NCBI RefSeq assembly: GCF_013911085.1
Contig: NZ_JACERN010000006.1
Location: 62,001-126,000, forward strand
Origin: Aquitalea aquatica
GTDB lineage: Bacteria > Pseudomonadota > Gammaproteobacteria > Burkholderiales > Chromobacteriaceae
Direction: 5' to 3'
Length of the DNA: 64,000 nucleotides
Under the pieces are notes generated by a model. The model was not told the origin of the DNA, searched no databases, and worked only from the letters and a program-made list of their open reading frames with translations. Positions 42,536 to 45,596 of the stretch are shown here, piece by piece. A program made the translations under genes and the position numbers. Every line of letters starts with the position of its first letter. Position 1 is the stretch's first letter.

Positions 42536-43003
42536 TCAGGCCGGCTGGCGGTGTTTGCCGCGCCAGCTGCGCCAGGCCGCATCCAGCGACAGGCCACCGG
42601 GGCCGAAGGCAAACAGCGCCAGCAGCAGCATGCCCCAGTAGTAGTGGAACTGGCGGGTGATGTCGGTGAGGCCGGGGTAGCTGATGACGGCCATCAGGTT
42701 GACCACGAACAGCCCGGCGGCGGCAAAGCGGCCAAACAGGCCGGCAACCAGCAGGCTGGAAAACACCGTTTCGCCAAAGGTACCCACCAGTGCCGCCAGT
42801 ACCGGCGGCAGCAGCGGCACATGATATTCCTCAGTAAACAGCAAGACCGTGGTATCCCAGTCGTCCAGCTTGGTAAGGCCAGACTTGAAAAATACATTTG
42901 CTACCCACAGCCGGAACAGCAGCAGCACCAGCGGGCGGGCAGCGTGACTGGCTTGGTCGAACAGCCGCTGCAGCGGCAGCAGTTTTTGTCTGAGAACTTG
43001 CAT
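42536..43003 (-). CDS. DoxX-family membrane protein, fifth gene of the bufferin operon
   Basis: A 155-residue inner-membrane protein with four hydrophobic segments. The DoxX motifs RLWVANVFFKSGLTKLDDWD and GTFGETVFSSLLVAGLFGRFAAAGL are clear. DoxX proteins are commonly found with DUF692/DUF2063 genes, where a redox or membrane role in the maturation or use of the peptide is suspected. The start at 43003 is chosen because the DoxX fold begins there; 94 extra in-frame codons run into the DUF2063 gene. The gene is 70 bp after it. Confidence 0.85.
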   Translation of the reverse strand: MQVLRQKLLPLQRLFDQASHAARPLVLLLFRLWVANVFFKSGLTKLDDWDTTVLLFTEEYHVPLLPPVLAALVGTFGETVFSSLLVAGLFGRFAAAGLFVVNLMAVISYPGLTDITRQFHYYWGMLLLALFAFGPGGLSLDAAWRSWRGKHRQPA

Positions 43004-43073
43004 GGTCGGTCTCCCGTGGTGTGGGCAAGCCGCGCCCCTCCGCCATGGTGGCGGATGGTGGACAAGCCTGGTC

Positions 43074-43823
43074 TTAGAGTTGGTAGTGGCTGAGCAGGCC
43101 GTCGGCGAATAACAGCGCCAGTCCGGCTTGCAGGTCGAAATCGTCTTGTGCGGCCAAGGCCAGCCCGGCAGCCTCGCCCAGCGGCAAACCATCCTGCAAG
43201 GCCAGTAGCAAGGCGGCCATGCCGGCAGCTTGTGCCTGTACGCTGACCTTGCCGGCGTGGCGGCTGACCAGTGCCTGCTCGCCACCGGCTGCCAGGTCTA
43301 CATTCAGCGTCTGGCCGGGCTGGTGTCCCTGCCAGATGGAAACCACCGGCCAGGAGGATGACAGTGCCCGGCTGCTGTCAGTCAGGCTGAAGCGCAGCTG
43401 GCTGAATTGTTCCGGGTCGATGCTGCTTAGTGTGGCGGCGGCCAGCGGGGTCTGGTCGATGGCGTAATAGCTGCGGTGTACTGCCCATTCCAGCTGGGCG
43501 ACATCCGCCAGATAAGGCAGTGTCTGTACCGGCGGGAAGTCCCGCAGGAAGTCGCCAAAACTGCCGCCATAGCGATGCAGATTGCCACTGTATGAGGCGT
43601 ACTGCTTGCTGTATTCACGCGCCAGCCCGGTCATGAATTCTTCACCGACGATCTGTCTGGTCACCGGGTAAATCATGTTCAGGGTTTCGATCAGGCCGAC
43701 GCGGTAGTTGTTGCGGTAGACCGCCAGCCCAGCAGGGTTCAGGCCCAGTGCGGCATCGGCCAGTTGCTCCTGTCGGGCAATCAATTCCAGCAGCTCTGCC
43801 TGCCAGCGTACTTCAGGCGTCAT
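43074..43823 (-). CDS. bufC: DUF2063 partner protein of the MNIO enzyme (BufC-type)
   Basis: A 249-residue protein. The N-terminal DUF2063 helical domain contains LIARQEQLADAAL and AVYRNNYRVGLIETLNMIYPVTRQIVGEEFM, and continues to about residue 95 with YGGSFGDFLRDF. The C-terminal half is a mixed domain. In bufferin and HvfABC systems the DUF2063 protein forms the complex with the DUF692 oxidase that recognises the precursor. The start overlaps the bufB 3' end by 11 bp, implying translational coupling. Start ATG 43823 is the first codon with family similarity. Confidence 0.85.
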   Translation of the reverse strand: MTPEVRWQAELLELIARQEQLADAALGLNPAGLAVYRNNYRVGLIETLNMIYPVTRQIVGEEFMTGLAREYSKQYASYSGNLHRYGGSFGDFLRDFPPVQTLPYLADVAQLEWAVHRSYYAIDQTPLAAATLSSIDPEQFSQLRFSLTDSSRALSSSWPVVSIWQGHQPGQTLNVDLAAGGEQALVSRHAGKVSVQAQAAGMAALLLALQDGLPLGEAAGLALAAQDDFDLQAGLALLFADGLLSHYQL

Positions 43824-44643
43824 GGCGTGCTCCTTGTAGGATGGCATCGGCCTTGGCGGCTTCGGCCTGCAGCGTGTCCAGCGGTGGAATATCCAGATCC
43901 CATTCAATCAGGGTCGGGCGCGGGCCAATGCTGGCGATGACCTGGGCGTATAGCTGCCACACGCCGGGGTGTACTGGCTGGCTGTGGGTGTCTACCAGCA
44001 TGCCTTCTCCCTCGCTATAGCCGGCCAGATGGATTTCGCCAATCGCCGTAGCAGGTAGCGCAGAGAGTACGGCTTGCACATCCGTCCCCAGGTTGATGCC
44101 GTTGACGTAGAGGTTGTTGACGTCCAGCAGCAGGCCGCAGCCGGTGCGCGCCACCAGTTCGGCCAGAAACTCGCCTTCGTTCATCTCGTTGCCGGGAAAT
44201 TCCACATAGCTGGACAGGTTTTCCAGCAGGATGCGCCGCCCGAGTGCCTGCTGGGTTTCATCCACATGACTGGCAATCACCGCCAGCGAGGCCATGGTGT
44301 AGGGAATGGGCAGCAGATCGTTCACATAGCGCTGGGCGCTGTGGTTGAACGACAGGTGTTCGGACACCGCCGGCGGATCGATGGCGTCCACCAGCCGCTT
44401 GAGGGCTGCCAGATGCTCTCCATCCGGGCGCACCAGCGAACCCAGACCCAGTCCCACGCCGTGTAGCGACAGCGGATAGTGGCTGGCCACCCGCTGCAGC
44501 ATGGCCAGCGGCATGCCGCCATCAAAAAAGTTTTCGCTGTGCACTTCCACCCAGCCTAGCGGCGGCAGGGTATCCAGTACCTGACGATAGTGGGGCGCAC
44601 GCAGGCCGATGCCGGCGACAGCGGGAAGAGAGGACGGAGTCAT
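43813..44643 (-). CDS. bufB: DUF692 multinuclear non-heme iron oxidase (BufB-type)
   Basis: A 276-residue TIM-barrel enzyme of the DUF692 (MNIO) family, which modifies cysteines of small peptides to thiooxazole-type rings. The MNIO landmarks are all visible: GIGLRAPHY at the start, EVHSENFF with metal-binding His/Glu, LHGVGLGLGS, SEHLSF, LLENLSSYVEF, LLLDVNNLYVN and EIHLAGYSEG. The final LIEWDLDIPPL is usual. It follows two DUF2282 precursor genes. ATG 44643 is preferred; a TTG 18 codons upstream is open. Confidence 0.92.
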   Translation of the reverse strand: MTPSSLPAVAGIGLRAPHYRQVLDTLPPLGWVEVHSENFFDGGMPLAMLQRVASHYPLSLHGVGLGLGSLVRPDGEHLAALKRLVDAIDPPAVSEHLSFNHSAQRYVNDLLPIPYTMASLAVIASHVDETQQALGRRILLENLSSYVEFPGNEMNEGEFLAELVARTGCGLLLDVNNLYVNGINLGTDVQAVLSALPATAIGEIHLAGYSEGEGMLVDTHSQPVHPGVWQLYAQVIASIGPRPTLIEWDLDIPPLDTLQAEAAKADAILQGARHDA

Positions 44644-44676
44644 GACCAGGTTTACCGGGAGGGAGAGGGGGAGGTG

Positions 44677-44698
44677 GTTGCCGGCAGTGACCGGCAAC
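44677..44698 (-). terminator. Hairpin between precursor gene and bufB
   Basis: GTTGCCGG (44677-44684) and CCGGCAAC (44691-44698) form a perfect 8-bp stem with a 6-nt loop just after the second precursor gene. No T run follows on the minus strand. It may protect or attenuate the message, giving more precursor than enzyme. Confidence 0.55.
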
Positions 44699-44712
44699 CA
44701 TGCCGGGGCGGA

Positions 44713-44967
44713 TTACTTGGCCAGTTTGCCGCCCATTTTTTCACAACTGCCCTTGGCGACGTATTTCCAGTCGCCCGGGTCCTTGTCCTTGGTGGCCTGA
44801 CCGGCGCAGGAGTGGCTGCCATTGGCGGCGGCGCAGTCGTTCTTGCCGGCCTGGGCGATGCCGAAGCATTTTTCCTTTTCTGCCGCGGCGGCTGGGGTGG
44901 CGCTGAGTGCACCCATGGCGACAACGGTGCCGAGGGCGGAGGCGAGCAGGGCTTTGGATACATTCAT
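44713..44967 (-). CDS. bufA: DUF2282 bufferin precursor peptide 2 (BufA1-type)
   Basis: An 84-residue exported peptide with a signal peptide (residues 1-29, ending AAAA before EKEKC). The mature part has four cysteines at 34, 45, 54 and 75, with the family pattern [26 protein letters not shown] and [12 protein letters not shown]2282 peptides are the substrates of DUF692 oxidases; modified cysteines bind copper in the periplasm. It is a close paralogue of the gene 111 bp upstream, with the same cysteine spacing. AAGGAG precedes the ATG. Confidence 0.9.
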
Positions 44968-45078
44968 GGTGATTCTCCTTGGGTGGGCAAGTTCAAGCGG
45001 GTTTTATAGTGGGGGCGCTGCGCCGGATCAGGCAGCCCGGTGGGCCACCCGACAGGCGTGCTGTTAACGATAGACTGT

Positions 45079-45345
45079 TTATTGTTTCATTGGTGCCATG
45101 GTCATGCCACCCATCTTTTCACAGCTGCCTTTGGCAACCAGCTTCCAGTCGCCGGGGTCCTTGTCCATCTTGGCCTGGCCTTTACAGCCATGCGCACCAG
45201 TGGCGGATGCACAGTCGTTCATGCCGGCCATGGCCACGCCATAGCATTTTTCCTGTTCTGCGGCCTGGGCCGGTACGGCAGTCAGAGCTGCCAGGCTAAC
45301 GACAGCACCGAGGGCGGAAGCAAGCAAGGTTTTGGAAGCGTTCAT
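45079..45345 (-). CDS. bufA: DUF2282 bufferin precursor peptide 1 (BufA1-type)
   Basis: An 88-residue exported peptide and first gene of the operon. Signal peptide residues 1-28 end in AQA before AEQEKC. Cysteines are at 34, 45, 54 and 75, identical in position to its neighbour. The C-terminal tail is longer and Met-rich (MTMAPM, plus other Met residues), which could add copper-binding ligands. The ATG follows AGGAG. It is read from one or both ECF-type promoters upstream. Confidence 0.9.
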
Positions 45346-45393
45346 GTCAATCTCCTGTCGGGGGTAAGCGGCAAGTGCCGGGTTTCAGGAGTC

Positions 45394-45420
45394 AGTCGCG
45401 TGGGCCGGGGCTTTCTTACA
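45394..45420 (-). promoter_or_regulatory. ECF-sigma-like promoter 1 of the bufferin operon
   Basis: On the minus strand TGTAAGAA (45420-45413), a 14-bp spacer and CGACT (45398-45394) resemble -35 and -10 boxes of ECF sigma factors. The -10 lies 49 bp before the first precursor ATG. An exact copy of both boxes with the same spacing lies 139 bp upstream. Confidence 0.6.
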
Positions 45421-45532
45421 CATCAGCAGAAAATATTTTGAAATTATTTGCATTTCGCTGCTATTGGCTGCTGTTGCAAAAAATTCAACGATGTTTTCCG
45501 CAAGCCTGCTGCGTGACCGTCTCTGCAGCATA

Positions 45533-45559
45533 AGTCGGCTTTACTGTCGGCTTCTTACA
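45533..45559 (-). promoter_or_regulatory. ECF-sigma-like promoter 2 of the bufferin operon
   Basis: TGTAAGAA (45559-45552), 14 bp, then CGACT (45537-45533) on the minus strand. Both boxes and spacing are identical to promoter 1 while the spacer differs, which argues for selection. It sits directly after the queE terminator. A transcript from here would have a leader of nearly 190 nt. Confidence 0.5.
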
Positions 45560-45568
45560 ATGACAGGC

Positions 45569-45596
45569 AAAAAAAATCGGGCGACCAGGCGCCCGA
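45569..45596 (-). terminator. Intrinsic terminator of the queCDE operon
   Basis: TCGGGCG (45577-45583) pairs with CGCCCGA (45590-45596); on the minus strand the stem is followed by eight T residues. Confidence 0.92.

Follow-up and report, generated by a model that had tools for sequence, protein, structure and literature searches.

The stretch of DNA analyzed here, referred to as the window, comprises 64,000 nucleotides of Aquitalea aquatica (contig NZ_JACERN010000006.1, positions 62,001 to 126,000), and on its minus strand lies an operon that, judged by its sequence, belongs to the bufferin-1 family, has kept a second, diverged precursor gene and is predicted to be regulated in trans by an extracytoplasmic function (ECF) sigma factor. 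We consider it quite probable that this bufferin-1 operon, with two diverged precursors, one enzyme pair and a sigma factor encoded in trans, gives rise to copper-binding products, the copper function being one that we infer from characterized relatives.

The operon and its gene families

The initial annotation had proposed a bufferin-type operon of five minus-strand genes, and both the genes and their order (bufA-a, bufA-b, bufB, bufC and doxX in the direction of transcription) were borne out by the positions of the open reading frames (ORFs) and by Pfam matches above the cut-off for all five proteins.

45079..45345, minus strand: bufA-a, first DUF2282 precursor (88 aa; PF10048, 1.4e-22), with Cys 34/45/54/75, Met-rich and with Lys after core Cys54
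44713..44967, minus strand: bufA-b, second DUF2282 precursor (84 aa; PF10048, 4.5e-24), with canonical NDC-A and HSC-A cores
43813..44643, minus strand: bufB, multinuclear iron oxidase (MNIO, DUF692) enzyme (276 aa; PF05114, 3.4e-102; NF050167, 354.7 bits, cut-off 310)
43074..43832, minus strand: bufC, DUF2063 partner, PME type 1 (252 aa; PF09836, 5.1e-20; HvfC model below cut-off)
42536..43003, minus strand: doxX, DoxX-family membrane protein (155 aa; PF07681, 5.1e-15; HvfX model below cut-off)

The reading frames of bufB and bufC overlap by 20 nt. Since family matches, gene order and the literature agree, the bufferin-type identity is upheld, and our data support reading the locus as a chromosomal bufferin-1 (Buf1, DUF2282 captophorin) operon with two precursors. 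The four conserved cysteines of a bufferin-1 DUF2282 precursor are present in both copies, an MNIO gene of the BufB kind adjoins them (354.7 against 310 bits for NF050167), the genes follow the order bufA-bufB-bufC, often continued by doxX in bufferin-1 clusters, and the length of BufC, together with its DUF2063 match above the cut-off, suits a bufferin-1 partner. Of the NCBIfam models, that for BufB is passed and those for HvfC (partner) and HvfX (DoxX) match below their cut-offs; none of the precursor models is passed, the BufA2 model scoring 27.4 of the required 60 bits for bufA-a and giving no match for bufA-b, and this speaks against the assignment.

The bufferin-1 cluster of Caulobacter (CC3254-CC3257) has the same order of DUF2282, MNIO, DUF2063 and DoxX genes and is described as being under ECF sigma control (PMC3511200), and a thiooxazole and copper chelation are reported for the Caulobacter bufferin (PMC12452194). 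The Caulobacter cluster has one precursor gene, whereas Aquitalea has two.

We infer the chemistry, export, metal binding and sigma-site pairing as follows. An ECF sigma factor encoded elsewhere, beside a zinc-finger anti-sigma gene, would drive transcription from two tandem sites upstream of bufA-a. BufC would bind the precursors while they still bear their signal peptides, and BufB would oxidize the central Cys45 and Cys54 to 5-thiooxazoles. The modified peptides would then be exported by Sec, the outer Cys34 and Cys75 would form a disulfide, a type of bond with a basis in the literature (PMC12452194), and the periplasmic products would bind copper. The bufA-b product would be the canonical peptide and that of bufA-a a diverged form with more Met, in which the second core site (Cys54-Lys) may be a poorer target for modification or may bind metal differently. 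A more specific version, which we offer as a tentative possibility, is that of a hetero-bufferin, in which one MNIO/partner pair would make two metallopeptides with different functions, the additional one having diversified beside the modified cysteines, with tandem promoters controlled by an envelope-stress ECF sigma factor in trans and not by a copper sensor.

Two diverged precursors and one enzyme pair

Cysteines are found at positions 34, 45, 54 and 75 of both precursors, and a comparison of the two thereby agrees with the identical positions listed in the initial annotation. The alignment with DUF2282 sequences that it had asked for has nine columns that are invariant in 43 sequences, including the four cysteines, and these are kept in both copies; the NDC motif is retained in bufA-a along with all four cysteines. 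By eye, both precursors have the features of a Sec signal peptide (Lys near the N terminus, a hydrophobic run and an AxA end). The AlphaFold model of bufA-a had a mean pLDDT of 77.4, with block means of >90 for residues 31 to 80, and gave no match in the PDB at an E value of ≤0.001, and a single-sequence PDB search with bufA-b found no relative at an E value of ≤1.

The claim that the copies differ in their tails, only the first being Met-rich, holds for the Met content but not for the restriction to the tail. The mature parts of bufA-a and bufA-b contain 7 and 1 Met, respectively, in the window and 4 to 9 and 1 to 2 through Aquitalea, but positions 39, 42, 53, 55 and 69 also separate the two copies nearly or fully consistently in the 10 Aquitalea genomes. 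The changes flanking the presumably modified cysteines are more telling than the difference in the tail.

Residues were counted in 78 of 90 precursor records; 11 loci whose precursors are diverged or truncated were set aside, as was a distant copy from G036. Residue 55, directly after core Cys54, is Lys in 10/10 Aquitalea bufA-a genes and Ala in 10/10 Aquitalea bufA-b and 18/18 canonical Chromobacterium genes (28/28 canonical tandem copies) as well as in 19/19 genes that are single at their locus; Lys is also present in 1 of the 13 Chromobacterium type-I extra copies. All 13 of these extra copies have Lys at residue 46, after core Cys45, where the other tabulated classes have Ala (62/62). Just before Cys54, residue 53 is Tyr in type-II extra copies (5/5), Gly (9/10) or Ser (1/10) in Aquitalea bufA-a and Ser in the single-at-locus genes (19/19), and residue 42 is Met in 10/10 Aquitalea bufA-a genes and Lys in 17/19 single-at-locus genes. 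In a wider named set of 112 precursors, the first core cysteine is followed by Ala in 103 and Lys in 9, and the second is followed by Ala in 105 and Lys in 7. Diverged precursors outside the 78-record set (e.g., L062, L072 and L080) have Lys or His after the first cysteine, and because these deviate, the residue rule applies to the queE-serB locus and its near relatives and does not cover all DUF2282 proteins.

The mature parts of the Aquitalea pair are 65 to 72% identical (6/6 named loci), and the signal peptides of the paralogues have a mean identity of 73%. Within Aquitalea, the ratio of nonsynonymous to synonymous polymorphism (pN/pS) for the mature part is 0.14 for bufA-a and 0.12 for bufA-b, and that for the signal peptide is 0.19 and 0.17, respectively. 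These low values in both copies imply that both genes are kept by purifying selection, and the signal peptides of the Aquitalea precursors are nearly as constrained as the mature product; the Chromobacterium type-I extra copies have a looser signal peptide (pN/pS of 0.41). Shared and constrained signal peptides fit preliminary published indications that recognition by BufBC involves the signal peptide (PMC12452194).

One explanation for the second precursor gene would be that it merely provides an extra dosage of the same product. In a comparison of 80 named loci out of 142 relatives, two DUF2282 ORFs were present in Aquitalea (6/6), Chromobacterium (11/11), Xenophilus (1/1) and Photobacterium (14/21) and in none of the loci from Vibrio (0/24) or other genera (0/17). 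The Photobacterium clusters with tandem copies, which have two DUF2282 genes before one MNIO gene, as here, count in favor of a dosage effect, with 85 to 95% identity in the mature part of the 13 measured pairs (the pair identities leave out two Chromobacterium pairs and one Photobacterium pair). In contrast, the Aquitalea copies have diverged to the identities given above, they differ at the neighbors of the core cysteines, and the same differences are fixed throughout the genus (10/10 genomes), making simple dosage very unlikely. The fixed difference is compatible with two mature products with different properties, as the initial annotation had suggested.

Searches of the whole A. aquatica assembly found one MNIO gene and two DUF2282 genes, and there is likewise one MNIO gene in each of the 10 Aquitalea genomes. 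Most likely, the one BufBC pair would modify both peptides. BufB has relatives in the PDB (3bww, 8hci and 7dz9), and a single-sequence PDB search with the DUF2063 protein BufC found no relative at an E value of ≤0.1. BufB has Arg15, Ala16, Asp249 and Leu250, while FonB is reported to have Arg15, Arg16, the catalytic Asp249 and Phe250 (PMC12668002); matched by equal numbering and motif, the two enzymes share Arg15 and Asp249 and differ at positions 16 and 250. For DUF2282 MNIOs, the same source describes a loss of Arg16 and an unconserved 250 site, and the BufB residues appear to agree with this published pattern (Arg15, no Arg16 and Asp249).

The Lys after Cys54 allows for a different interpretation, in which full modification is restricted to the bufA-b product, and the bufA-a product would be a Met/Cys metal-binding peptide, modified in part or not at all, whose leader has been kept by descent. 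FonBC leaves substrates with a charged residue after the cysteine unprocessed (PMC12668002), and because it refuses such residues, Cys54-Lys of bufA-a may stay unmodified, which counts against modification of both peptides by the one pair. The presence of Lys in every Aquitalea bufA-a gene, against Ala in all canonical tandem and single-at-locus genes, points in the same direction, and PMC12452194 also considers that modification might be limited to some of the precursors. However, bufA-a retains the four cysteines and the NDC motif, and its signal peptide is still constrained. Cys-Lys motifs are also usual in the Buf2 group, although together with an Asp in the enzyme (PMC12668002) that is not seen at position 250 of the window BufB. 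Overall, we find a bufA-a peptide outside the normal modification route unlikely and prefer the reading in which BufBC acts on both.

Promoter-like sites, a candidate sigma factor and the inducer

Two promoter-like sites are located upstream of bufA-a.

45394..45420, minus strand: proximal ECF-sigma promoter-like site, TGTAAGAA-N14-CGACT, exact match; 73 to 76 nt in 10/10 Aquitalea genomes
45533..45559, minus strand: distal ECF-sigma promoter-like site, TGTAAGAA-N14-CGACT, exact match; 200 to 213 nt in 10/10 Aquitalea genomes

In an alignment of the queE-bufA gap of the 10 Aquitalea genomes, they appear as two conserved blocks that read TGTAAGAA-N14-CGACT or nearly so, with the distal site ending in CGACA in 4/10 genomes. 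The boundary that the initial annotation had set at 45559 is the first base of the distal site. Two exact sites were observed in the window versus 0 expected from shuffles, and no further exact copies of TGTAAGAA-N14-CGACT were found in the 4.46-Mb assembly beyond the two of the operon. Across a family sample of 61 genomes, GTAAGAA-N14-CGACT gave 50 matches in 36 genomes, and 35 of the 50 matches precede bufA. The looser pattern GTAA-N17-CGAC(T/C/A) occurs ≤330 nt before bufA in 46/56 family genomes, and no site was found in the 350 nt upstream of any of the 29 downstream tandem copies.

The A. aquatica genome has 20 matches to PF08281, 17 of them above the cut-off, and these may include proteins other than sigma factors; when the 20 loci were scanned, a further loose site turned up in L234. 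The candidate sigma gene (G000:C45:165594-166151) is followed by a zinc-finger anti-sigma gene, with scores of 253.9 versus 162.2 bits for TIGR02943, 70.7 versus 50 for NF052368 and 29.7 versus 22.2 for zf-HC2. An ECF sigma gene followed by a zinc-finger anti-sigma gene is the arrangement of a Neisseria-type sigmaE regulon, and the two sites upstream of the operon have the neisserial spacing, with a −10 core that is off by one base. All 46 site-bearing genomes have a homologue of the candidate (E value of 1.4e-58 or better), that of G025 being partial with an internal stop. Six of the ten site-less genomes are without a homologue at an E value of ≤1e-20, and G023, G039 and G042 have weaker ones with 34, 41 and 50% identity, respectively.

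Physical linkage was seen in three genomes. In G039, bufA and a homologous sigma/anti-sigma pair are arranged divergently, with an 18-nt-spacer site facing each way. G047 has such a pair approximately 4 kb away from its second bufferin cluster; the bufA gene of that cluster also has an 18-nt-spacer site, and the same 7.5-kb stretch contains four further loose sites. A cluster in G023 (L247 1906-4607, C61) contains a precursor with SCSKK repeats, an MNIO gene, a short gene at the DUF2063 position, DoxX, a 33%-identical ECF sigma factor and a 60-aa ORF that gave no match to the A. aquatica anti-sigma factor at an E value of 1e-3. Because of the co-occurrence and these linkages, we consider the pairing of the C45-type sigma factor with the bufA sites likely but not proven, and the operon looks as if it is activated by a stress ECF sigma factor whose gene lies elsewhere in the genome. 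As side observations, the layout of the G023 cluster resembles that of the neisserial sigmaE operon, and G023 lacks both a close homologue of the main sigma factor and the bufA site; contigs C13, C34 and C36 of G047 gave identical scores for the second bufferin cluster and sigma gene, representing either true copies or an assembly duplicate.

Several points weigh against this regulatory scheme. Taken by itself, the exact short pattern is no rarity, the 50 matches comparing with 35 for a reversed control in the same 61 genomes, and only the position of the exact matches is informative. The 46/46 co-occurrence does not amount to 46 independent events, since sigma factor and site share ancestry, and G046 lacks an N17 site although its sigma homologue is 75% identical. 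Upstream of the sigma gene of A. aquatica, where autoregulation would predict a site, none was found, and the msrB gene of the same genome is also without an upstream site.

A wider regulon in A. aquatica was considered and not supported: with one mismatch allowed, the pattern and the reversed control both gave 6 matches, and the four extra matches cannot be distinguished from chance on these counts alone. Two of the four precede genes (HD-domain and Sel1-repeat; by eye) that have an exact site in other genomes, one is inside the candidate sigma gene, and one shows nothing. The site before the HD-domain gene was seen in Aquitalea and Chromobacterium (L183, L178 and L199) and that before the Sel1-repeat gene in two Aquitalea genomes (L189 and L176), and both genes are possible regulon members.

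In Caulobacter, going by locus numbers, sigF and a DUF1109 negative regulator lie beside the cluster, whereas the Aquitalea sigma gene lies elsewhere and has a zinc-finger anti-sigma gene, and the sites differ as well (GTAACC-N16-CGAA for sigmaF [PMC3511200] and GTAAGAA-N14-CGACT in Aquitalea). In the Neisseria sigmaE operon NMB2140-2145 (gonophorin cluster) and the Haemophilus RpoE2 cluster, DoxX, DUF2063 and DUF692-type genes are described as being under an ECF sigma factor with a zinc anti-sigma factor, as is predicted here. The neisserial sigmaE consensus is given as GTMAGBWTT, 12 to 13 nt and CGTCTAAH, with a start-to-start distance of 21 to 22 nt, compared to 21 nt here (PMC2893595), and its −10 CGTCT corresponds to CGACT in Aquitalea. 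The Haemophilus cluster and sigma gene are at separate loci (PMC7907618), as in Aquitalea, but the precursors in Neisseria and Haemophilus are of the EGKCG type (PMC12668002), while those of Aquitalea are DUF2282 proteins. The Aquitalea sigma factor is likened to these by arrangement and sites.

The same resemblance raises the question of whether the role of the operon lies in oxidant or thiol stress, or with another metal, copper being incidental. Neisseria sigmaE and Haemophilus RpoE2, with their similar sites and sigma/anti-sigma arrangement, regulate a DoxX/MNIO cluster and msrAB, and RpoE2 is reported to be required for the induction of the Haemophilus DoxX/COG3220/DUF2063 cluster by hypochlorous acid (HOCl) (PMC7907618). 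The same type of site is also found approximately 60 to 80 nt before a gene that by eye is msrB-like in five family genomes (G051, G052, G053, G048 and G020; L210-L213 and L200). On the other hand, the characterized bufferins and captophorins bind copper (PMC12668002, PMC12452194), Caulobacter sigmaF, which controls the bufferin cluster, is reported to respond to heavy metals, with targets that are not induced by agents generating reactive oxygen species (PMC3511200), and meningococcal sigmaE is described as unresponsive to peroxide, diamide and singlet oxygen (PMC2893595). A role apart from copper seems improbable to us, and we retain copper binding as the presumed function. The type of site suggests an ECF sigma factor, and since ECF sigma factors over such clusters respond to heavy metals in Caulobacter and to HOCl in Haemophilus, either may be the inducer here.

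Relatives, novelty and meaning

PF10048 matches were present in 57/61 family genomes, and a close tandem precursor pair was found in 10/10 genomes of g1 (Aquitalea), 18/19 of g2 (the Chromobacterium group, with Xenophilus sp. AP218F among its members) and a single genome of g9. Among the 60 loci of 55 genomes that were compared together with the window, different genera share the order queE-bufA(s)-bufB-bufC-doxX-serB, although there are exceptions. In the DNA tree, Aquitalea bufA-a forms one starred clade and bufA-b joins the Chromobacterium copies, the type-II extra ones excepted. Approximately unbiased (AU) tests rejected none of the groupings tried (four at P values of 0.29 to 0.49 and all canonical copies as one clade at a P value of 0.069), and by tree and AU tests, one old duplication and several cannot be told apart. 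Two loci (L070 in G038 and L074 in G040) have a lone bufA between queE and serB, with bufB, bufC and doxX not found at the locus; both genomes have MNIO genes elsewhere, so the lone bufA would be either a leftover or a substrate in trans.

Two further elements lie in the gaps around the genes.

45569..45595, minus strand: terminator-like hairpin and T run 3′ of queE, parting queE from the operon (by eye)
44675..44700, minus strand: hairpin in the bufA-b/bufB gap, perhaps a stoichiometry element (folded; z-score of −2.5 in the window gap)

The T run and part of the stem of the queE hairpin are retained in the Aquitalea alignment of the queE-bufA gap. The bufA-b/bufB hairpin as a conserved stoichiometry element was not upheld, as it is missing in four Aquitalea genomes and the window gap between the two precursors has a z-score of −0.2. 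Gaps with z-scores of ≤−2 were 13/52 for bufA-bufB, 19/29 between tandem precursors, 1/38 for bufC-doxX and 8/44 for doxX-serB, hairpins being more frequent in the gaps that follow precursor genes than in those between bufC and doxX. Hairpins after precursor genes (window 44644-44712 and relatives) perhaps set the level of precursor over that of enzyme, but they are not uniform, and we regard this as a weak lead.

Clusters with tandem precursors, Buf1 clusters with sigma genes and the open question of MNIOs with several substrates have already been reported (PMC12452194). Among the matches listed (titles and abstract starts), we found no paper on this operon in Aquitalea and none on Aquitalea together with MNIO or captophorin, and a search for Chromobacterium together with DUF2282 found no paper. 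New here are the genus-wide retained diverged pair, the Lys beside core Cys54 and the ECF-sigma sites with the co-occurrence of the sigma factor.

The published survey (PMC12452194) leaves it open whether a single MNIO complex acts on several precursors or just on some of them. Aquitalea and Chromobacterium offer natural pairs of a conserved and a diverged copy in one operon, differing, for example, in Lys for Ala after a core cysteine, and since these pairs share an operon and differ beside a core cysteine, the selectivity of the MNIO is directly testable. If our interpretation is true, the promoter evidence would also link the DUF2282 bufferins to the stress regulons that are known for the EGKCG-type clusters in Neisseria and Haemophilus.

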